Positions 1 to 13,500 of a stretch of DNA of 64,000 nt are shown here, in pieces (position 1 is the stretch's first letter; every line of letters starts with the position of its first letter). The notes under the pieces are model-generated. The model did not search any database and was not told where the DNA came from. It saw only the letters and a program-made list of their open reading frames with translations. A program made the position numbers and the translations under genes. Source of the DNA: Ochotona curzoniae (Eukaryota > Chordata > Mammalia > Lagomorpha > Ochotonidae); NCBI RefSeq assembly GCF_017591425.1, contig NW_024465665.1, forward strand, positions 1-64,000, in the 5' to 3' direction.

Positions 1-369
1 GGGGTGTCTAAGGTTGGCCAGTACTCATTGAAGGAAGAATGAGGAAGCAGGAACAGAATGGGAGGAAGAAGAGAGGTGCTACTCTGTGGACAACTTCTCA
101 AAGCTGCTGCTGCAGCAGGTGGGTAGCTAAGTCCCAGCTGGAGAAACCTCAGCTTCATTTGGCTGTAGAGAATTTGGCAGAGCAGGAGATCCAGTGGCCT
201 CGGGGTATTCTTGTGGCCATGGCTAAGGATGCAGGTGCCAAGCTGGCTTATGCACCGCCCTGGATGTGGGAGATATCACAGTGTCCCTTGTGATCCAGAA
301 ATGTCCCAAGTACAAAATAAGACCCTCGATGTTCATGGTTTCCTTTTATTCCTTTTCTTTCTTTTTAAG

Positions 370-437
370 AATGTCTACTTCCCAACCCATCGTCTGAGCA
401 AGCGTCAGACAGCAAACCTCACCAAGACAAGCTGGAG
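370..437 (+). CDS. Predicted exon A, diverged copy in unit 1
   Basis: Same splice signals as the reference copy. Three private bases: 370 (changes the split junction codon from Ala to Glu), 400 (Pro to Gln) and 407 (third position of a Ser codon, silent). The cassette frame stays open. The donor GGAG|GTAAGT is unchanged. Confidence 0.47.
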
Positions 438-1009
438 GTAAGTCCTGACAGTGTGATTTTACCCGTGTGGTGTGTGCGTGGGACAGAACGGACATGCCCC
501 TGTAATTTGTTTTCTCTAGAAATCTGTTTCTTTTCTGAGTCGACACCTCTCAGGGAGTACACCAGTGTAGCAGGGGATTTGGTTTCCCCCTTTGGATTTA
601 CACAGGAATATTTGGACGTAATGTTTTGAGAGTCTACCTTGCTGAGTTTTTCAGTTTGGTCCTCCGCCACATCTGGAGTCAGCTGCCCACTTGTTCTTTC
701 CCTTCTCGGGCTAAGCGTGCTAGGTACTCTGCATTGGGATCTCCTGGCCAGTGTCTGTGCGTTCTCTTTAGCCAGAATATTGCTGTGTTGTCCAAACCTG
801 CTTTCTGTTCTTTGACCACACAGTTGCGATAGCTCAAACCCATCTGATGTTTCTCTGGACCACTTAGTCTGTATATTATGGGTTTCTTATGATTATGTCC
901 CTAAATATTTGTGTATAAATTTTGCAGTTTTTGATTATTAGTGATATCAGATTCATGTTATTTTGTTACAGACCTGCAGCTTAACTGTGCCAGCAGTTCC
1001 CTGCGAGAA
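370..1009 (+). other. Diverged patch in unit 1
   Basis: Fourteen substitutions plus a 1-bp and a 3-bp deletion relative to all other units, in 640 bp. The flanks, 1-369 and from about 1010 onward, match the consensus except for one G lost near 2231. The patch covers exon A, the A-B intron and the start of exon B. Confidence 0.9.
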
Positions 1010-1206
1010 AAAAGAATTGTGTGATTTCCAGGGGACAACAGCTACGGCTCATCCAGCCAAAAGCCCAACTGTTCCACCGAATCCGTACCGGAGGGTAGGG
1101 CCTCCTCACGCTCGCCCCCCTGCAGGAGCTCCGCCAGCCAGCCCTGCTCAGAAATTTTTGCCCACGGGGGTTCCTGCCATATGGCCACCACCACCGCCTG
1201 CTGGAG
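972..1206 (+). CDS. Predicted exon B, diverged copy in unit 1 with in-frame 3-bp deletion
   Basis: At 235 bp it is three bases shorter than every other copy: one Glu is missing from the EEKKE patch. Position 983 changes Phe to Leu. The frame stays open through the proline-rich end and both splice sites are kept, although the upstream tract carries six private substitutions (915-954). This is the only indel inside a predicted exon in the window, and it is a multiple of three. Confidence 0.5.
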
Positions 1207-2045
1207 GTATGTGATTTGGTTTGTCAGGGAATTTTGTTTTTCTCTTCCTTGCACACTACAAAGACGAAACACTAGTTTGTTCATGAAATAGATGCTCACT
1301 TGACCGTGGCTCATCTACTCATGAGAGAGAAAGCAAAAGCCCAAACTGACTCTAATGCCATGTGAGTGAAGCATGACTTTTCAGATTGGGAAGGGAGCCA
1401 GCCAACCATAGACAGCCTTCATGTGAATGGAAGCCCACTCGCTTCCTTTTGCCCTCTTACAGTAACACGGGCATTATTTCACACTATATCAGTTGATAGA
1501 AAGCGGTTATGCTGGCTGCTACTGAAGATGATCCTAATTCCCATAGTCCACAAAAGGACTAGGTGAAATGGTCTTTCGTGAGTAGCTCCTGTGCGTTCCT
1601 AGTCTATTTACAACCTACTGATTGTAAGGCTGCTTTGATCATGTTTGGCCTCATAACTGCTGAATCTTTTGGCTTTGGTGGGTAACTTGGGATAAGAAAC
1701 AAACAGACAGACAGCTGTGGGGTGGGTGGCGCTGGGGGAAATGGATTGCTTGACTCTTCTCCCCCACCATTCACAAAGACACAGGTGACTGCAGAATGAG
1801 TGGTCGTGTAAGAAATGCTGGGCAGAGCCCATGAACTGTCTTGTCTGATATCAAGACAAGTGCTTTGGAAATGGAAGGCCAAGGAAAATGAGTTTTGTCG
1901 GAGGGGGGCATGCGGGGAGGATATTTTCAGATACACGTTTGGATGCAGCCAAGTGTTTGCCCACCTTTCAGCCAGTCCTGCTTGCATCTGGCTAAGATGT
2001 CCCGAGCCAAACTACTGTTTTCCCATCACTCATTTCCTTCCACAG

Positions 2046-2078
2046 CCTCGTGGCGCTGTCTGAAGTTGGGCAATGTAG
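2046..2078 (+). CDS. Predicted exon C in unit 1
   Basis: Identical in sequence and splice sites to the reference copy. Downstream, the open extension of this frame is altered by the missing G near 2231, so a read-through terminal exon here would end in a different peptide. Confidence 0.4.
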
Positions 2079-3555
2079 GTATGTGGGTTTCCGTGGTGAG
2101 TGGACAACAGGAAGAACTTGTGAAAGTCAACACAAAGTTTGAGAAGAGATTCGCTCAGGAAAGGCTGTGTATTGGCGTGGGAAGCATAAGGTTATCAGGT
2201 GGCAATATTGGGTTTCTATGGTGTTGTTGTCGGTTGTACGATTTAACGGACAAGCATTATGACAGTGAGCGTGAGGGTCAGAGGTGATCTTGGACGCTTG
2301 GATCTGTGTGCACATGGCTGCGATGGCATGGCTTAAGAGGTGATGGCATCTCAGTGGGCACGTTGACACCCTGTATCGTTGGACACGCCATGGAATCTTT
2401 GCTCAGGAAGCCGGGGTTTTGGTAAGGTTTATTTTTCTGTACCTGAAAGGCAGGGCTACAGGCAGGAGGCACCAGGGGTGTGTGGGCTGCATGTTGGGTC
2501 TCTGGATTCTTGTGTTTGTTTGTTTTCTGGAGAGTAGTTGATGTTTAGGGGAGAGGTAGCAGAGTCACACAGAGCAAAACGTGACAAGAGAGCTTGCGTC
2601 CTCTGCCCGACTCCACAAAAGCCACAGCCCAAATCCGGGTCGTTCTGATGCTGGGAGCCAGGAGTATAGTGGGAGTTTGCCGTGTGTCTGCAGGGTGCGA
2701 TGGCCTTGGACCCGCCTCTGCTGGTTTTCCTGGCTTGGAGCCAGCGAGCGGGATTAGAAAACAGAGCAGCAGCCAGTGCTCCCCATGGTGGCCATTAGTA
2801 TGTTGGTGAAGACTGCACTTAATGGATATGAAGCATCTGATACCTTGTGCATTCCAAATGTGCCAGCTCACAGTCTTCACCATTCAGTGACCACATAGCG
2901 AGTGTAGGTGCGTTTCAGGAGGATGGATGTTGTCAGGTGTTGAGGAGCAACCTTGCTTCCATGTCACGGATGGAAGGCCAGGCACTATGAAGCCGGCAGT
3001 ATGTTGAAGGAGATGATCAGGTTGAAATGTTGAGGTTCCAGTTGTCCTAGATGTGGGCTGTTGTGAGTGAGTGAGTGAGTGTGTGTGTTTTCGCAGGGTG
3101 GGGAGTTTGAGGGCTCTTAGTTTTCCACCTCTTCTAGCTGTCCAAGGGGCTCAGGTGTAGGTAAAGGTATGTGTGAGGCTCAGATTGATGTAGGCTTGGC
3201 GTGGTGTCAGTCAAGTACGAAATGGAAATGACTTGTAGGACAAGGATGTTGGCAAGTGTCCGAACTGATGGATCGTGGAGTCTGGTGAATCGGGAGAGGA
3301 GTGAGCCAGTGAGGATGCTGAGAGGTCGGGGAACTAACCCTTAGGTCCGAGCCCCAAGCGAGCTGCAGTGTGAGTGACTAGGCGAGAAGGCAAGGGAAGG
3401 GTCAAAGAGTTGTATTCCCAGGAGGGAGGTCTGAATGGATGTCCTCGGACCCTGAGCATTTCCCGATGGTAGAGTCCAGGAACACGTATTGCCCAGCGGG
3501 GGTGTCTAAGGTTGGCCAGTACTCATTGAAGGAAGAATGAGGAAGCAGGAACAGA

Positions 3556-3616
3556 ATGGGAGGAAGAAGAGAGGTGCTACTCTGTGGACAACTTCTCAAA
3601 GCTGCTGCTGCAGCAG
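3556..3616 (+). CDS. Possible first coding exon E
   Basis: An ATG in a favourable context (A at -3, G at +4) opens a frame reading MGGRREVLLCGQLLKAAAAA and reaches the donor-like GCAG|GTGGGT at 3616/3617 with one base left over. That is exactly the phase exon A needs. In this frame a TGA lies at 3538-3540, and no pyrimidine-rich acceptor precedes the segment, so if it is an exon it is more likely a first exon than an internal one. No TATA box or other clear promoter is seen upstream. The purine-rich stretch could also be simple non-coding sequence, and another frame here (EEAGTEWEEEERCYSVDNF...) is open too. Speculative. Confidence 0.2.
3604..3615. repeat. 12-bp palindrome CTGCTGCAGCAG at the candidate exon E donor
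   Basis: A perfect palindrome whose right end abuts the GCAG|GTGGGT donor-like site. In RNA it could fold and limit access to that site. The short CTG run could equally be chance. Confidence 0.5.
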
Positions 3617-3618
3617 GT

Positions 3619-3867
3619 GGGTAGCTAAGTCCCAGCTGGAGAAACCTCAGCTTCATTTGGCTGTAGAGAATTTGGCAGAGCAGGAGATCCAGTGGCCTCG
3701 GGGTATTCTTGTGGCCATGGCTAAGGATGCAGGTGCCAAGCTGGCTTATGCACCGCCCTGGATGTGGGAGATATCACAGTGTCCCTTGTGATCCAGAAAT
3801 GTCCCAAGTACAAAATAAGACCCTCGATGTTCATGGTTTCCTTTTATTCCTTTTCTTTCTTTTTAAG
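3619..3867 (+). other. Stretch between candidate exon E and exon A
   Basis: No gene recognised. It ends in the long pyrimidine tract (about 3837-3867) that serves as the exon A acceptor. On the minus strand this tract contains an AATAAA (complement of TTTATT near 3842-3847). A short frame continues through here from upstream of E without a stop for part of the way, but I see nothing to support it as coding. Confidence 0.4.
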
Positions 3868-3935
3868 CATGTCTACTTCCCAACCCATCGTCTGAGCCAG
3901 CGTCGGACAGCAAACCTCACCAAGACAAGCTGGAG
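3868..3935 (+). CDS. Predicted exon A of the repeated cassette (reference copy)
   Basis: A 68-bp segment with strong splice signals: a long pyrimidine tract ending TTTCTTTTTAAG before it and GGAG|GTAAGT after it, a near-perfect U1 site. Read with two bases completing a split codon, it encodes 22 residues starting CLLPNPSSEP and ending HQDKLE, polar and proline/serine-rich, with no stop. It ends on a full codon, so exon B is read from its first base. The other reading that stays open (HVYFPTHRL...) runs into a stop inside exon B, and the third has a TGA within exon A. Equivalent copies lie in all 19 units. Unit 1 differs by Pro to Gln, a silent change and a changed junction codon; units 14, 15 and 19 have His to Asn. 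I do not recognise the family. That it is an exon is inferred from motifs and phase. Confidence 0.5.
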
Positions 3936-4470
3936 GTAAGTCCTGACAGTGTAATTTTACCCGTGTGGTGTGTGCGTGGGACAGAACGGACATGCCCCTG
4001 TAATTTGTTTTCTCCAGAAATCTGTTTCTTTTCTGAGTCGACACCTCTCAGGGAGTACACCAGTGTAGCAGGGGATTTGGTTTCCCCCTTTGGATTTACA
4101 CAGGAATATTTGGACGTAATGTTTTGAGAGTCTACCTTGCTGAGTTTTTCAGTTTGGTCCTCCGCCACATCTGGAGTCAGCTGCCCACTTGTTCTTTCCC
4201 TTCTCGGGCTAAGCGTGCTAGGTACTCTGCATTGGGGATCTCCTGGCCAGTGGCTGTGCGTTCTCTTTAGCCAGAATATTGCTGTGTTGTCCAAACCTGC
4301 TTTCTGTTCTTTGACCACACAGTTGCGATCGCTCAAACCCATCTGATGTTTCTCTGGACCACTTAGTCTGTATATTATGGGTTTCTTATGATTATGTCCC
4401 TAAATATTTGTGTCTAAATGTTGCATTTTTTGATTGTTAGTGATACCAGATTTATGTTATTTTGTTACAG
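3936..4470 (+). other. Predicted intron A-B, 535 bp
   Basis: Starts GTAAGT and ends TTACAG. It holds variable sites s1 (4175) and s2 (4458, in the acceptor tract). A 141-codon minus-strand frame overlaps it, but that frame has no recognisable domain and no supporting signals. No dispersed repeat or RNA gene was recognised. Confidence 0.45.
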
Positions 4471-4708
4471 ACCTGCAGCTTCACTGTGCCAGCAGTTCCC
4501 TGCGAGGAGAAAAAAGAATTGTGTGATTTCCAGGGGACAACAGCCACGGCTCATCCAGCCAAAAGCCCAACTGTTCCACCGAATCCGTACCGGAGGGTAG
4601 GGCCTCCTCACGCTCGCCCCCCTGCAGGAGCTCCGCCAGCCAGCCCTGCTCAGAAATTTTTGCCCACGGGGGTTCCTGCCATATGGCCACCACCACCGCC
4701 TGCTGGAG
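4471..4708 (+). CDS. Predicted exon B, proline-rich (reference copy)
   Basis: A 238-bp segment preceded by a T-rich tract ending TTTTGTTACAG and followed by GGAG|GTATGT. In the frame set by exon A it is open for 79 codons and leaves one base. The first 30 or so residues are mixed (TCSFTVPAVPCEEKKELCDF), with three cysteines and an acidic/basic EEKKE patch. The remaining 48 residues hold 18 prolines, with PPNPYRRVGPP near the middle and WPPPPPAG at the end. Such runs are typical ligands for SH3, WW or EVH1 domains, but no target can be inferred. One silent site (4545) and one Gln/His site (4653) vary between units. The same frame is open in all 18 complete copies, though copies are so alike that this is weak evidence of selection. 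Length 238 alone would break the frame; with exon A it makes 306 nt. Confidence 0.55.
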
Positions 4709-5547
4709 GTATGTGATTTGGTTTGTCAGGGAATTTTGTTTTTCTCTTCCTTGCACACTACAAAGACGAAACACTAGTTTGTTCATGAAATAGATGCTCA
4801 CTTGACCGTGGCTCATCTACTCATGAGAGAGAAAGCAAAAGCCCAAACTGACTCTAATGCCATGTGAGTGAAGCATGACTTTTCAGATTGGGAAGGGAGC
4901 CAGCCAACCATAGACAGCCTTCATGTGAATGGAAGCCCACTCGCTTCCTTTTGCCCTCTTACAGTAACACGGGCATTATTTCACACTATATCAGTTGATA
5001 GAAAGCGGTTATGCTGGCTGCTACTGAAGATGATCCTAATTCCCATAGTCCACAAAAGGACTAGGTGAAATGGTCTTTCGTGAGTAGCTCCTGTGCGTTC
5101 CTAGTCTATTTACAACCTACTGATTGTAAGGCTGCTTTGATCATGTTTGGCCTCATAACTGCTGAATCTTTTGGCTTTGGTGGGTAACTTGGGATAAGAA
5201 ACAAACAGACAGACAGCTGTGGGGTGGGTGGCGCTGGGGGAAATGGATTGCTTGACTCTTCTCCCCCACCATTCACAAAGACACAGGTGACTGCAGAATG
5301 AGTGGTCGTGTAAGAAATGCTGGGCAGAGCCCATGAACTGTCTTGTCTGATATCAAGACAAGTGCTTTGGAAATGGAAGGCCAAGGAAAATGAGTTTTGT
5401 CGGAGGGGGGCATGCGGGGAGGATATTTTCAGATACACGTTTGGATGCAGCCAAGTGTTTGCCCACCTTTCAGCCAGTCCTGCTTGCATCTGGCTAAGAT
5501 GTCCCGAGCCAAACTACTGTTTTCCCATCACTCATTTCCTTCCACAG
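4709..5547 (+). other. Predicted intron B-C, 839 bp
   Basis: Starts GTATGT and ends CCACAG. It contains s5 (5003), a short ACAG-type simple run near 5203-5217, a G-rich block at 5219-5240, a hairpin at 5339-5360 and another G-rich block near 5402-5421. Overlapping minus-strand frames of 127 and 74 codons are not recognisable. Confidence 0.4.
5339..5360. repeat. Short inverted repeat (7-bp arms, 8-base loop), one per unit
   Basis: TGTCTTG and CAAGACA flank the loop TCTGATAT. An alternative pairing of CTTGTCT with AGACAAG around a 7-base loop overlaps it. It lies in the predicted B-C intron and is present in all units; no function is evident. Confidence 0.6.
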
Positions 5548-5580
5548 CCTCGTGGCGCTGTCTGAAGTTGGGCAATGTAG
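5548..5580 (+). CDS. Predicted exon C, 33 bp, phase-neutral (reference copy)
   Basis: A small segment with a very good acceptor (pyrimidine-rich from about 5519, ending TTCCTTCCACAG) and donor GTAG|GTATGT. A branch-point-like GGCTAAGA lies near 5492-5499. Joined to the single base left by exon B it reads A-SWRCLKLGNV and again leaves one base. At 33 bp it can be included or skipped without changing frame, and its last base plus the first two of the next unit's exon A make GCA (Ala). If its donor is not used, the same frame stays open for another 61 codons to a TGA at 5763-5765, so it could also start a terminal exon. Unit 1 is frameshifted in that extension near 2231. Confidence is lower than for A and B because it is short. 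Confidence 0.42.
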
Positions 5581-7001
5581 GTATGTGGGTTTCCGTGGTG
5601 AGTGGACAACAGGAAGAACTTGTGAAAGTCAACACAAAGTTTGAGAAGAGATTCGCTCAGGAAAGGCTGTGTATTGGCGTGGGAAGCATAAGGTTATCAG
5701 GTGGCAATATTGGGTTTCTATGGTGTTGTTGTCGGGTTGTACGATTTAACGGACAAGCATTATGACAGTGAGCGTGAGGGTCAGAGGTGATCTTGGACGC
5801 TTGGATCTGTGTGCACATGGCTGCGATGGCATGGCTTAAGAGGTGATGGCATCTCAGTGGGCACGTTGACACCCTGTATCGTTGGACACGCCATGGAATC
5901 TTTGCTCAGGAAGCCGGGGTTTTGGTAAGGTTTATTTTTCTGTACCTGAAAGGCAGGGCTACAGGCAGGAGGCACCAGGGGTGTGTGGGCTGCATGTTGG
6001 GTCTCTGGATTCTTGTGTTTGTTTGTTTTCTGGAGAGTAGTTGATGTTTAGGGGAGAGGTAGCAGAGTCACACAGAGCAAAACGTGACAAGAGAGCTTGC
6101 GTCCTCTGCCCGACTCCACAAAAGCCACAGCCCAAATCCGGGTCGTTCTGATGCTGGGAGCCAGGAGTATAGTGGGAGTTTGCCGTGTGTCTGCAGGGTG
6201 CGATGGCCTTGGACCCGCCTCTGCTGGTTTTCCTGGCTTGGAGCCAGCGAGCGGGATTAGAAAACAGAGCAGCAGCCAGTGCTCCCCATGGTGGCCATTA
6301 GTATGTTGGTGAAGACTGCACTTAATGGATATGAAGCATCTGATACCTTGTGCATTCCAAATGTGCCAGCTCACAGTCTTCACCATTCAGTGACCACATA
6401 GCGAGTGTAGGTGCGTTTCAGGAGGATGGATGTTGTCAGGTGTTGAGGAGCAACCTTGCTTCCATGTCACGGATGGAAGGCCAGGCACTATGAAGCCGGC
6501 AGTATGTTGAAGGAGATGATCAGGTTGAAATGTTGAGGTTCCAGTTGTCCTAGATGTGGGCTGTTGTGAGTGAGTGAGTGAGTGTGTGTGTTTTCGCAGG
6601 GTGGGGAGTTTGAGGGCTCTTAGTTTTCCACCTCTTCTAGCTGTCCAAGGGGCTCAGGTGTAGGTAAAGGTATGTGTGAGGCTCAGATTGATGTAGGCTT
6701 GGCGTGGTGTCAGTCAAGTACGAAATGGAAATGACTTGTAGGACAAGGATGTTGGCAAGTGTCCGAAGTGATGGATCGTGGAGTCTGGTGAATCGGGAGA
6801 GGAGTGAGCCAGTGAGGATGCTGAGAGGTCGGGGAACTAACCCTTAGGTCCGAGCCCCAAGCGAGCTGCAGTGTGAGTGACTAGGCGAGAAGGCAAGGGA
6901 AGGGTCAAAGAGTTGTATTCCCAGGAGGGAGGTCTGAATGGATGTCCTCGGACCCTGAGCATTTCCCGATGGTAGAGTCCAGGAACACGTATTGCCCAGC
7001 G
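5581..7001 (+). other. Region downstream of exon C, no gene recognised
   Basis: The + strand is noticeably rich in G and T and poor in C over much of this stretch. It holds a GT-rich microsatellite (6566-6590), an acceptor-like TTTTCGCAG at 6591-6599 and donor-like GTAAGG, GTAAAG and GTATGT motifs. I could not assemble a convincing additional coding exon. Frames of 71 (+) and 112 (-) codons around 6048-6386 look incidental. No canonical polyadenylation signal (AATAAA or ATTAAA) was found on the + strand. Confidence 0.4.
6566..6590 (+). repeat. GTGA/GT microsatellite, one per unit
   Basis: Four GTGA repeats followed by a short GT run. The copies show the same length in every complete unit, since unit lengths differ only by indels located elsewhere. 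It directly precedes the acceptor-like TTTTCGCAG. Confidence 0.85.
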
Positions 7002-10000
7002 GGGGTGTCTAAGGTTGGCCAGTACTCATTGAAGGAAGAATGAGGAAGCAGGAACAGAATGGGAGGAAGAAGAGAGGTGCTACTCTGTGGACAACTTCTC
7101 AAAGCTGCTGCTGCAGCAGGTGGGTAGCTAAGTCCCAGCTGGAGAAACCTCAGCTTCATTTGGCTGTAGAGAATTTGGCAGAGCAGGAGATCCAGTGGCC
7201 TCGGGGTATTCTTGTGGCCATGGCTAAGGATGCAGGTGCCAAGCTGGCTTATGCACCGCCCTGGATGTGGGAGATATCACAGTGTCCCTTGTGATCCAGA
7301 AATGTCCCAAGTACAAAATAAGACCCTCGATGTTCATGGTTTCCTTTTATTCCTTTTCTTTCTTTTTAAGCATGTCTACTTCCCAACCCATCGTCTGAGC
7401 CAGCGTCGGACAGCAAACCTCACCAAGACAAGCTGGAGGTAAGTCCTGACAGTGTAATTTTACCCGTGTGGTGTGTGCGTGGGACAGAACGGACATGCCC
7501 CTGTAATTTGTTTTCTCCAGAAATCTGTTTCTTTTCTGAGTCGACACCTCTCAGGGAGTACACCAGTGTAGCAGGGGATTTGGTTTCCCCCTTTGGATTT
7601 ACACAGGAATATTTGGACGTAATGTTTTGAGAGTCTACCTTGCTGAGTTTTTCAGTTTGGTCCTCCGCCACATCTGGTGTCAGCTGCCCACTTGTTCTTT
7701 CCCTTCTCGGGCTAAGCGTGCTAGGTACTCTGCATTGGGGATCTCCTGGCCAGTGGCTGTGCGTTCTCTTTAGCCAGAATATTGCTGTGTTGTCCAAACC
7801 TGCTTTCTGTTCTTTGACCACACAGTTGCGATCGCTCAAACCCATCTGATGTTTCTCTGGACCACTTAGTCTGTATATTATGGGTTTCTTATGATTATGT
7901 CCCTAAATATTTGTGTCTAAATGTTGCATTTTTTGATTGTTAGTGATACCAGATTTATGTGATTTTGTTACAGACCTGCAGCTTCACTGTGCCAGCAGTT
8001 CCCTGCGAGGAGAAAAAAGAATTGTGTGATTTCCAGGGGACAACAGCCACGGCTCATCCAGCCAAAAGCCCAACTGTTCCACCGAATCCGTACCGGAGGG
8101 TAGGGCCTCCTCACGCTCGCCCCCCTGCAGGAGCTCCGCCAGCCAGCCCTGCTCAGAAATTTTTGCCCACGGGGGTTCCTGCCATATGGCCACCACCACC
8201 GCCTGCTGGAGGTATGTGATTTGGTTTGTCAGGGAATTTTGTTTTTCTCTTCCTTGCACACTACAAAGACGAAACACTAGTTTGTTCATGAAATAGATGC
8301 TCACTTGACCGTGGCTCATCTACTCATGAGAGAGAAAGCAAAAGCCCAAACTGACTCTAATGCCATGTGAGTGAAGCATGACTTTTCAGATTGGGAAGGG
8401 AGCCAGCCAACCATAGACAGCCTTCATGTGAATGGAAGCCCACTCGCTTCCTTTTGCCCTCTTACAGTAACACGGGCATTATTTCACACTATATCAGTTG
8501 ATAGAGAGCGGTTATGCTGGCTGCTACTGAAGATGATCCTAATTCCCATAGTCCACAAAAGGACTAGGTGAAATGGTCTTTCGTGAGTAGCTCCTGTGCG
8601 TTCCTAGTCTATTTACAACCTACTGATTGTAAGGCTGCTTTGATCATGTTTGGCCTCATAACTGCTGAATCTTTTGGCTTTGGTGGGTAACTTGGGATAA
8701 GAAACAAACAGACAGACAGCTGTGGGGTGGGTGGCGCTGGGGGAAATGGATTGCTTGACTCTTCTCCCCCACCATTCACAAAGACACAGGTGACTGCAGA
8801 ATGAGTGGTCGTGTAAGAAATGCTGGGCAGAGCCCATGAACTGTCTTGTCTGATATCAAGACAAGTGCTTTGGAAATGGAAGGCCAAGGAAAATGAGTTT
8901 TGTCGGAGGGGGGCATGCGGGGAGGATATTTTCAGATACACGTTTGGATGCAGCCAAGTGTTTGCCCACCTTTCAGCCAGTCCTGCTTGCATCTGGCTAA
9001 GATGTCCCGAGCCAAACTACTGTTTTCCCATCACTCATTTCCTTCCACAGCCTCGTGGCGCTGTCTGAAGTTGGGCAATGTAGGTATGTGGGTTTCCGTG
9101 GTGAGTGGACAACAGGAAGAACTTGTGAAAGTCAACACAAAGTTTGAGAAGAGATTCGCTCAGGAAAGGCTGTGTATTGGCGTGGGAAGCATAAGGTTAT
9201 CAGGTGGCAATATTGGGTTTCTCTGGTGTTGTTGTCGGGTTGTACGATTTAACGGACAAGCATTATGACAGTGAGCGTGAGGGTCAGAGGTGATCTTGGA
9301 CGCTTGGATCTGTGTGCACATGGCTGCGATGGCATGGCTTAAGAGGTGATGGCATCTCAGTGGGCACGTTGACACCCTGTATCGTTGGACACGCCATGGA
9401 ATCTTTGCTCAGGAAGCCGGGGTTTTGGTAAGGTTTATTTTTCTGTACCTGAAAGGCAGGGCTACAGGCAGGAGGCACCAGGGGTGTGTGGGCTGCATGT
9501 TGGGTCTCTGGATTCTTGTGTTTGTTTGTTTTCTGGAGAGTAGTTGATGTTTAGGGGAGAGGTAGCAGAGTCACACAGAGCAAAACGTGACAAGAGAGCT
9601 TGCGTCCTCTGCCCGACTCCACAAAAGCCACAGCCCAAATCCGGGTCGTTCTGATGCTGGGAGCCAGGAGTATAGTGGGAGTTTGCCGTGTGTCTGCAGG
9701 GTGCGATGGCCTTGGACCCGCCTCTGCTGGTTTTCCTGGCTTGGAGCCAGCGAGCGGGATTAGAAAACAGAGCAGCAGCCAGTGCTCCCCATGGTGGCCA
9801 TTAGTATGTTGGTGAAGACTGCACTTAATGGATATGAAGCATCTGATACCTTGTGCATTCCAAATGTGCCAGCTCACAGTCTTCACCATTCAGTGACCAC
9901 ATAGCGAGTGTAGGTGCGTTTCAGGAGGATGGATGTTGTCAGGTGTTGAGGAGCAACCTTGCTTCCATGTCACGGATGGAAGGCCAGGCACTATGAAGCC

Positions 10001-10504
10001 GGCAGTATGTTGAAGGAGATGATCAGGTTGAAATGTTGAGGTTCCAGTTGTCCTAGATGTGGGCTGTTGTGAGTGAGTGAGTGAGTGTGTGTGTTTTCGC
10101 AGGGTGGGGAGTTTGAGGGCTCTTAGTTTTCCACCTCTTCTAGCTGTCCAAGGGGCTCAGGTGTAGGTAAAGGTATGTGTGAGGCTCAGATTGATGTAGG
10201 CTTGGCGTGGTGTCAGTCAAGTACGAAATGGAAATGACTTGTAGGACAAGGATGTTGGCAAGTGTCCGAACTGATGGATCGTGGAGTCTGGTGAATCGGG
10301 AGAGGAGTGAGCCAGTGAGGATGCTGAGAGGTCGGGGAACTAACCCTTAGGTCCGAGCCCCAAGCGAGCTGCAGTGTGAGTGACTAGGCGAGAAGGCAAG
10401 GGAAGGGTCAAAGAGTTGTATTCCCAGGAGGGAGGTCTGAATGGATGTCCTCGGACCCTGAGCATTTCCCGATGGTAGAGTCCAGGAACACGTATTGCCC
10501 AGCG
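7002..10504 (+). repeat. Repeat unit 3 (3,503 bp)
   Basis: Predicted exons: A 7371-7438, B 7974-8211, C 9051-9083. Haplotype s1-s7: T G C G G C C. It has the G variant in the exon B acceptor tract, as do units 6 and 12, and one private change, A to C at 9223, between exon C and the next unit. Confidence 0.98.
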
Positions 10505-13500
10505 GGGGTGTCTAAGGTTGGCCAGTACTCATTGAAGGAAGAATGAGGAAGCAGGAACAGAATGGGAGGAAGAAGAGAGGTGCTACTCTGTGGACAACTT
10601 CTCAAAGCTGCTGCTGCAGCAGGTGGGTAGCTAAGTCCCAGCTGGAGAAACCTCAGCTTCATTTGGCTGTAGAGAATTTGGCAGAGCAGGAGATCCAGTG
10701 GCCTCGGGGTATTCTTGTGGCCATGGCTAAGGATGCAGGTGCCAAGCTGGCTTATGCACCGCCCTGGATGTGGGAGATATCACAGTGTCCCTTGTGATCC
10801 AGAAATGTCCCAAGTACAAAATAAGACCCTCGATGTTCATGGTTTCCTTTTATTCCTTTTCTTTCTTTTTAAGCATGTCTACTTCCCAACCCATCGTCTG
10901 AGCCAGCGTCGGACAGCAAACCTCACCAAGACAAGCTGGAGGTAAGTCCTGACAGTGTAATTTTACCCGTGTGGTGTGTGCGTGGGACAGAACGGACATG
11001 CCCCTGTAATTTGTTTTCTCCAGAAATCTGTTTCTTTTCTGAGTCGACACCTCTCAGGGAGTACACCAGTGTAGCAGGGGATTTGGTTTCCCCCTTTGGA
11101 TTTACACAGGAATATTTGGACGTAATGTTTTGAGAGTCTACCTTGCTGAGTTTTTCAGTTTGGTCCTCCGCCACATCTGGAGTCAGCTGCCCACTTGTTC
11201 TTTCCCTTCTCGGGCTAAGCGTGCTAGGTACTCTGCATTGGGGATCTCCTGGCCAGTGGCTGTGCGTTCTCTTTAGCCAGAATATTGCTGTGTTGTCCAA
11301 ACCTGCTTTCTGTTCTTTGACCACACAGTTGCGATCGCTCAAACCCATCTGATGTTTCTCTGGACCACTTAGTCTGTATATTATGGGTTTCTTATGATTA
11401 TGTCCCTAAATATTTGTGTCTAAATGTTGCATTTTTTGATTGTTAGTGATACCAGATTTATGTTATTTTGTTACAGACCTGCAGCTTCACTGTGCCAGCA
11501 GTTCCCTGCGAGGAGAAAAAAGAATTGTGTGATTTCCAGGGGACAACAGCCACGGCTCATCCAGCCAAAAGCCCAACTGTTCCACCGAATCCGTACCGGA
11601 GGGTAGGGCCTCCTCACGCTCGCCCCCCTGCAGGAGCTCCGCCAGCCAGCCCTGCTCACAAATTTTTGCCCACGGGGGTTCCTGCCATATGGCCACCACC
11701 ACCGCCTGCTGGAGGTATGTGATTTGGTTTGTCAGGGAATTTTGTTTTTCTCTTCCTTGCACACTACAAAGACGAAACACTAGTTTGTTCATGAAATAGA
11801 TGCTCACTTGACCGTGGCTCATCTACTCATGAGAGAGAAAGCAAAAGCCCAAACTGACTCTAATGCCATGTGAGTGAAGCATGACTTTTCAGATTGGGAA
11901 GGGAGCCAGCCAACCATAGACAGCCTTCATGTGAATGGAAGCCCACTCGCTTCCTTTTGCCCTCTTACAGTAACACGGGCATTATTTCACACTATATCAG
12001 TTGATAGAGAGCGGTTATGCTGGCTGCTACTGAAGATGATCCTAATTCCCATAGTCCACAAAAGGACTAGGTGAAATGGTCTTTCGTGAGTAGCTCCTGT
12101 GCGTTCCTAGTCTATTTACAACCTACTGATTGTAAGGCTGCTTTGATCATGTTTGGCCTCATAACTGCTGAATCTTTTGGCTTTGGTGGGTAACTTGGGA
12201 TAAGAAACAAACAGACAGACAGCTGTGGGGTGGGTGGCGCTGGGGGAAATGGATTGCTTGACTCTTCTCCCCCACCATTCACAAAGACACAGGTGACTGC
12301 AGAATGAGTGGTCGTGTAAGAAATGCTGGGCAGAGCCCATGAACTGTCTTGTCTGATATCAAGACAAGTGCTTTGGAAATGGAAGGCCAAGGAAAATGAG
12401 TTTTGTCGGAGGGGGGCATGCGGGGAGGATATTTTCAGATACACGTTTGGATGCAGCCAAGTGTTTGCCCACCTTTCAGCCAGTCCTGCTTGCATCTGGC
12501 TAAGATGTCCCGAGCCAAACTACTGTTTTCCCATCACTCATTTCCTTCCACAGCCTCGTGGCGCTGTCTGAAGTTGGGCAATGTAGGTATGTGGGTTTCC
12601 GTGGTGAGTGGACAACAGGAAGAACTTGTGAAAGTCAACACAAAGTTTGAGAAGAGATTCGCTCAGGAAAGGCTGTGTATTGGCGTGGGAAGCATAAGGT
12701 TATCAGGTGGCAATATTGGGTTTCTATGGTGTTGTTGTCGGGTTGTACGATTTAACGGACAAGCATTATGACAGTGAGCGTGAGGGTCAGAGGTGATCTT
12801 GGACGCTTGGATCTGTGTGCACATGGCTGCGATGGCATGGCTTAAGAGGTGATGGCATCGCAGTGGGCACGTTGACACCCTGTATCGTTGGACACGCCAT
12901 GGAATCTTTGTTCAGGAAGCCGGGGTTTTGGTAAGGTTTATTTTTCTGTACCTGAAAGGCAGGGCTACAGGGAGGAGGCACTAGGGGTGTGTGGGCTGCA
13001 TGTTGGGTCTCTGGATTCTTCTGTTTGTTTGTTTTCTGGAGAGTAGTTGATGTTTAGGGGAGAGGTAGCAGAGTCACACAGAGCAAAACGTGACAAGAGA
13101 GCTTGCGTCCTCTGCCCGACTCCACAAAAGCCACAGCCCAAATCCGGGTCGTTCTGATGCTGGGAGCCAGGAGTATAGTGGGAGTTTGCCGTGTGTCTGC
13201 AGGGTGCGATGGCCTTGGACCCGCCTCTGCTGGTTTTCCTGGCTTGGAGCCAGCGAGCGGGATTAGAAAACAGAGCAGCAGCCAGTGCTCCCCATGGTGG
13301 CCATTAGTATGTTGGTGAAGACTGCACTTAATGGATATGAAGCATCTGATACCTTGTGCATTCCAAATGTGCCAGCTCACAGTCTTCACCATTCAGTGAC
13401 CACATAGCGAGTGTAGGTGCGTTTCAGGAGGATGGATGTTGTCAGGTGTTGAGGAGCAACCTTGCTTCCATGTCACGGATGGAAGGCCAGGCACTATGAA

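Follow-up and report, generated by a model that had tools for sequence, protein, structure and literature searches.

Among the human arrays that carry one gene or ORF per unit, that of PRR20 at 13q21.1 is described as containing, in each 6.6-kb unit, a gene of three exons whose proline-rich product is found mainly in testis, and the TAF11-Like macrosatellite at 5p15.1 is listed by the same source as having one gene or ORF per unit (PMC3018141). A survey of large human arrays gives CT47 and DUX4 as further cases with one gene or ORF per unit, and records units of 3.3 kb for D4Z4 (4q35 and 10q26), of ~3.4 kb for an array at 5p15.1, and of 3.5 kb for arrays of MaLR LTRs (PMC2588610). The ~3.4-kb row for 5p15.1 in the survey's table is, we infer from a common Charlie 2a element, the TAF11-Like array. 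Each D4Z4 unit contains exons 1 and 2 of DUX4, and exon 3, which has the poly(A) signal, is located outside the units (PMC7564753). Another group of arrays is part of a larger gene: the survey counts 23 arrays wholly within a gene, LPA having an identity of >99%, and gives units of 2.4 kb for DAZ, 2.9 kb for DMBT1 and 1.5 kb for NBPF (PMC2588610). The kringle IV-2 repeat of LPA (6q26; 5.6 kb) is protein-coding and is described as present in 1–40 units per allele (PMC11462820).

The window analysed here, the whole stretch of 64,000 nucleotides, consists from end to end of a head-to-tail array, made up of 18 complete units of ~3,503 bp and a 19th of which 950 bp are included. The starts of the 19 units are spaced by 3,503 bp in 16 of 18 intervals, the remaining two measuring 3,498 and 3,504 bp. 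With many head-to-tail copies of multi-kilobase size and high identity, the array has the makeup of a macrosatellite. In the 19-unit alignment, 33 of 3,504 columns are variable among the 18 complete units, and units 2–18 differ from each other at 0–9 positions (mean 3.6 of ~3,503; 136 pairs). Unit 1 stands apart in one tract, which contains 16 of its 17 private difference events, as counted by hand from the alignment table, the remaining one being a single base elsewhere. The tract diverges by ~2.5% from units 2–18, including the loss of one codon in exon B (see below), and its pattern suggests a piece from a more distant copy, perhaps introduced via gene conversion. Unit 2 serves as the reference, and the exon positions given further on lie within it.

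1–64000, no strand assigned: tandem array, from the unit starts and spacings and the 19-unit alignment; neither array end lies inside the window
3499–7001, plus strand: unit 2, the reference unit, from the unit starts and the alignment of units
370–1005, plus strand: diverged tract of unit 1 (alignment columns 369–1007), spanning the interval between the first base of exon A and the beginning of exon B

Five predicted exons were located on the plus strand of the unit. Three of them correspond to segments of 68, 238 and 33 bp which an earlier note, made from the letters, had described as sharing a single open frame and having strong acceptors and donors; they are indeed found at the proposed positions in all 18 complete units.

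3556–3616, plus strand: predicted start-codon exon, coding part of 61 nt (MGGRREVLLCGQLLKAAAAA and one further base), leaving in phase 1, with a donor score of 9.85 (rank 2 of 266)
3868–3935, plus strand: predicted exon A, 68 nt, phase 1 in and phase 0 out, acceptor ending in AAG, present in 19 of 19 units
4471–4708, plus strand: predicted exon B, 238 nt (235 nt in unit 1), phase 0 in and phase 1 out, proline-rich, present in 18 of 18 complete units
5548–5580, plus strand: predicted exon C, 33 nt, phase 1 to phase 1, present in 18 of 18 complete units
6641–6669, plus strand: predicted micro-exon D, 29 nt, acceptor of rank 6 and donor of rank 3, with 18 intact copies, one per complete unit

Exons A, B and C measure 68, 238 and 33 nt in 17 complete units and 68, 235 and 33 nt in unit 1, and the truncated 19th unit contains exon A only. 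In each of the 18 complete units, A-B-C reads as an open frame and leaves one base at its end. A and B add up to 306 nt and the three exons to 339 nt, and both B and C exit in the phase that A requires. The claims that C joins the next A in phase 1 and that A plus B makes 306 nt were thereby confirmed, the result being a cyclic open chain of 339 nt. Given that the units are nearly identical, openness in 18 of them amounts to about one observation, and the 18 open units, as copies of each other, were rejected as 18 independent proofs. The unit-1 type keeps all six splice sites of A–C and the frame despite the ~2.5% divergence of its tract; as both unit types retain them, the frame has survived at least that divergence.

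The start-codon exon opens with an ATG (3556) that has an A at −3 and a G at +4. It comprises 20 codons plus one base and is followed by the donor CAG/GTGGGT at 3616. It joins A in frame, and all 19 units carry it intact. Because a TGA occurs in the same frame at 3538, 18 nt 5′ of the ATG, in this frame 3556–3616 can only be a protein start and not an internal coding exon. At the other end, D entered in phase 1 from either B or C leads to a TAG after seven codons. When the donor of C is left unused, the frame continues to a stop, for a one-unit protein of 194 residues in 17 units and of 201 residues in unit 1, whose frame is shifted near the end by a one-base difference. The model joining C to D predicts 140 residues (139 in unit 1), and the one-unit readings are uninterrupted in 18 of 18 complete units, each of which contains a start-to-stop frame in the form of a predicted splice model.

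Regarding the known arrays, D4Z4/DUX4 resembles the present one in its 3–4-kb unit, its uniformity and the coding start and stop in each unit, the present unit being likewise without AATAAA or ATTAAA. The D4Z4 unit is GC-rich. The DUX4 ORF is described as lying in one exon (PMC7564753), whereas the frame found here is split over several. The nearest known array by anatomy is that of PRR20, which we set beside the present one by description, with one gene per unit; the PRR20 units, however, carry CpG islands (PMC3018141), of which the present unit shows none. LPA shares the near-identity of the units and the possibility of fitting exons of adjoining units in phase, realized here in the 339-nt cyclic chain, the joining of which is a prediction. 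It differs in that its repeat is part of one gene and encodes a folded kringle domain, whereas the present unit has start and stop exons and no recognised domain. The products of DAZ, DMBT1, NBPF and SPDYE3 are of other kinds. What these four genes would have in common with the predicted chain is that exons are repeated within one gene (PMC2588610, PMC4063668); the units of DAZ, DMBT1 and NBPF are of other sizes than the present ~3,503 bp. Among the published arrays, human ones of similar unit size were found and none was tied to the present sequence. As read from its letters, the array would be a gene-bearing macrosatellite, which is a known kind, and a hybrid reading, with both monomeric and polymeric products, would be the more novel one.

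Splice sites were scored with position-weight matrices. The acceptors of A, B and C score 13.25 (rank 1), 11.92 (rank 3) and 10.55 (rank 5) among 284, and their donors 11.63 (rank 1), 8.80 (rank 6) and 8.21 (rank 8) among 266. Strong sites outside the exon set are the acceptors ranked 2 and 4 (4965 and 4018) and the donors ranked 4, 5 and 7, and the top acceptor of both strands (15.97) sits on the minus strand. The longest open, cyclic in-frame exon chain per unit was determined using sites at least as strong as the weakest of the set (donor/acceptor 8.2/10.5), these thresholds having been chosen after the sites had been seen. At 8.2/10.5 the chain measures 339 nt on the plus strand, being exactly A-B-C, and 0 on the minus strand, and 339 nt was reached by none of 300 global and none of 300 local dinucleotide shuffles. 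The same length was reached in 0/600 shuffles at 8.0/8.0, where one attained 306 nt, and in 0/600 at 8.2/9.6, against 14/300 at the loose setting of 6.4/6.4; the case for the exon set depends, therefore, on the strength of the sites and not on the frame alone. The minus strand yielded no cyclic chain at any of three thresholds. The unit contains five strong internal exon pairs on the plus strand and none on the minus strand; among 500 shuffles, 8 had four or more. The site ranks and the cyclic chain support an exon set on one strand, matched in phase, that exceeds chance at the strict site thresholds.

The outer exons were compared with shuffled sequence in the same manner. When the 1.7 kb upstream was shuffled, a comparable start exon appeared in 34 of 1000 cases, and within 500 nt in 8 of 1000; the figure rises to 97/1000 when the condition on −3 and +4 is dropped and to 383/1000 for any ATG exon at loose settings. 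The real unit offers a second ATG-exon candidate, with an ATG at 5412 reading into C. A site pair of the strength of that of D was found in 26 of 1000 shuffles of 5600–7001. The best one-unit model at 8.2/9.6 joins the start exon, A, B and the read-through of C, reaching a stop after 582 nt, against 0 on the minus strand; the maxima in two sets of 300 shuffles were 567 and 588 nt. The 423 nt of the D-ended model, its stop included, were reached by 11 of 600 shuffles at 8.2/9.6 and by 91 of 300 at 6.4/6.4, a setting at which the minus strand gives 177 nt and the best real one-unit model is a different one (ATG 3727, donor 4596, acceptor 5474; 624 nt). The case for a one-unit gene model thus also depends on strong sites.

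Two further frames of the unit were recorded. The longest one from stop to stop, of 160 codons, runs on the minus strand at 3920–4399, covering the intron after exon A and part of that exon; it has no Pfam match. As a gene it was rejected, given that this strand has no cyclic chain at three thresholds and no strict one-unit model. An 84-residue ORF at 3537–3791 on the plus strand, recurring in other units, overlaps the start exon and the first intron.

The plus strand of the whole window contains neither AATAAA nor ATTAAA. On the minus strand of the window, AATAAA is present in 37 copies, compared with 0 on the plus strand. Both hexamers are also missing from 458 of 1000 shuffles of the unit, so that their absence is not in itself unusual, yet it leaves the unit with no canonical 3′ end; the rarer signals AATAGA and AAGAAA are present. 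TATAAA was not found in the unit, and none of its 300-nt windows qualifies as a CpG island. Units of gene-per-unit arrays usually, though not by definition (D4Z4 has no 3′ signal), show signs of a promoter and a canonical signal for the 3′ end, neither of which was seen here. The observed/expected ratio of CpG is 0.39, with an excess of TpG and CpA, a pattern as in vertebrate DNA.

The sequence collections searched for relatives were mainly prokaryotic, viral and metagenomic, and a spliced animal protein would probably be missed in them. The cassette was compared with 5.8 billion proteins, a database expected to be poor in spliced animal proteins, and none of 35 candidates matched at E 0.001; a query of the start exon plus three modules had no match at E 10 among 7,997 scored candidates of a database expected to be likewise poor. 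Pfam gave no family for the cassette or for four other ORFs of the unit, chosen from a longer ORF list, and thus no homeobox match. The best match of the cassette in the PDB had an E value of only 0.91, and Rfam at gathering scores returned nothing for positions 1–12000 of the 64000. No relative was detected with the DNA pattern of exon B, with the cassette protein in viral contigs or with the unit in plasmids, nor with the 84-residue ORF when scanned against viral and genome contigs. For this same ORF an identical protein was obtained as one of two candidates (four member sequences, one 2,807-base contig), and the contig may come from another genome or be a piece of the source genome itself.

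The comparison of units gives little variation with which to judge the exons, which contain five nonsynonymous and two synonymous substitutions (neutral expectation 0.69 and 0.28, with 0.03 for stops). Eight events fall in their 339 nt versus 23 in the other 3,165 (p 0.008), the exons being the more variable part; leaving out the private events of unit 1, the numbers are 3 and 11 (p 0.15). The only indel in the exons is of 3 nt, a whole codon, and three single-base indels lie outside A–C, one of them in the read-through frame of C. No sign of purifying selection or protein-level constraint is seen on the exons in these few events, which have low power. Regarding codon usage, the other two frames of the joined exons outscore that of A-B-C, 85% of the 339-nt windows of the unit score as high or higher in the best of their three frames, and 283 of 2000 random synonymous versions match the score. 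With so little variation, the selection and codon data do not decide the coding status.

We tentatively favour the reading in which each complete unit carries a single small gene for a proline-rich product, or a copy of it that decayed recently. The start exon, A and B would be spliced together, after which C would either be read to its stop, for a product of 194 residues, or be joined to D, for one of 140 residues. Since the unit has no canonical poly(A) signal, the transcripts would extend over more than one unit, their likely end point being the flanking DNA, on the pattern of D4Z4/DUX4. Second in likelihood, though itself doubtful, is a non-coding macrosatellite in which the exons are relics of a captured older gene, kept intact by recent copying, and which may still make spliced RNA. 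The ratio of nonsynonymous to synonymous changes (5:2) is that of neutral sequence, the exons vary at least as much as the remainder of the unit, codon usage is neutral, and neither the cassette nor the four other ORFs match Pfam, all of which a relic would explain; moreover, the ZAV and SST1 arrays are described as expressed without a clear ORF (PMC3018141). On the other hand, the unit-1 type, ~2.5% different in its tract, retains the six splice sites and the frame, and the sole exon indel is of 3 nt, with the single-base ones outside A–C, an argument that comes from few events and has low power. That the exon set is a mere coincidence of splice-like sites and an open frame seems to us very improbable: the 14 of 300 shuffles at loose thresholds and the post hoc choice of thresholds speak for it, whereas the strict thresholds of 8.2/10.5 and 8.2/9.6 gave 0/600 each, the set takes up three of the top five acceptors and three of the top eight donors, and the minus strand has no chain at three thresholds.

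The earlier note had put forward as a possibility a single giant repeat gene of 18 or more modules, in which A-B, with or without C, is spliced across the units into proline-rich modules of 102 or 113 residues, the outer exons lying beyond the array as in LPA. This reading accounts for the sums of 306 nt for A plus B and 339 nt for A, B and C, for the exit of both B and C in the phase of A, for a cyclic chain found in 0/600 strict shuffles, for a unit that has no canonical poly(A) signal and for the symmetric 1-1 exon C, which could be skipped. Given A, B and C, however, C would fit A by chance in one case out of three, and 339 nt is attained by 14/300 loose-site shuffles. A purely internal cassette would not be expected to come with a start exon, seen in all 19 units, or with a stop-bearing D, seen in each of the 18 complete ones, and neither protein constraint nor a relative was seen. 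The exon set at strict thresholds and the ability of the array to expand in frame have held up from this proposal, which, in view of the start exon and D, no longer stands as the preferred reading and is in our judgement unlikely. The missing AATAAA and ATTAAA fit transcripts that cross units, which leaves room for a polymer, and, as B and C exit in the phase of A, read-through transcripts could make polymers even from a gene normally confined to one unit. A combination of both behaviours, to which we give little probability, is a self-counting array: a transcript starting in unit k would run to the array end and yield anything between the 140-residue monomer that includes D and a polymer that skips D and contains every module downstream. 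If true, this would produce a protein ladder set by the start position, the splicing and the copy number.

Uniform multi-kilobase arrays often defeat assembly and annotation, and genes in them may stay unlisted; the present one comes with a clear and checkable exon map. If it is transcribed, it would be a test case for the passage from tandem gene copies to a repeat protein, given its combination of start exon, in-frame cassette and stop micro-exon with the lack of a poly(A) signal.

Returning to the favoured reading of one small gene, or its recently decayed copy, per unit, the array would be held uniform by unequal crossing-over and gene conversion. Among seven common variants of units 2–18, 11 of 21 pairs of sites show all four combinations; these variants are shuffled between units, which points to the two processes as those keeping the array uniform. 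Unit 4 carries five private substitutions within 162 bp (12860–13021), most units having none or one, and this stretch is a possible conversion tract. Tandem Repeats Finder, whose longest period is 500, called no array, and the comparison of units at lags 1–8 gave no clear higher-order period. Units 5 and 13 are identical, as are units 9 and 17, both pairs lying eight units apart. The mean difference between units is 2.7 at lag 8 versus 3.6 at lag 1, and this similarity is perhaps the trace of a multi-unit duplication.
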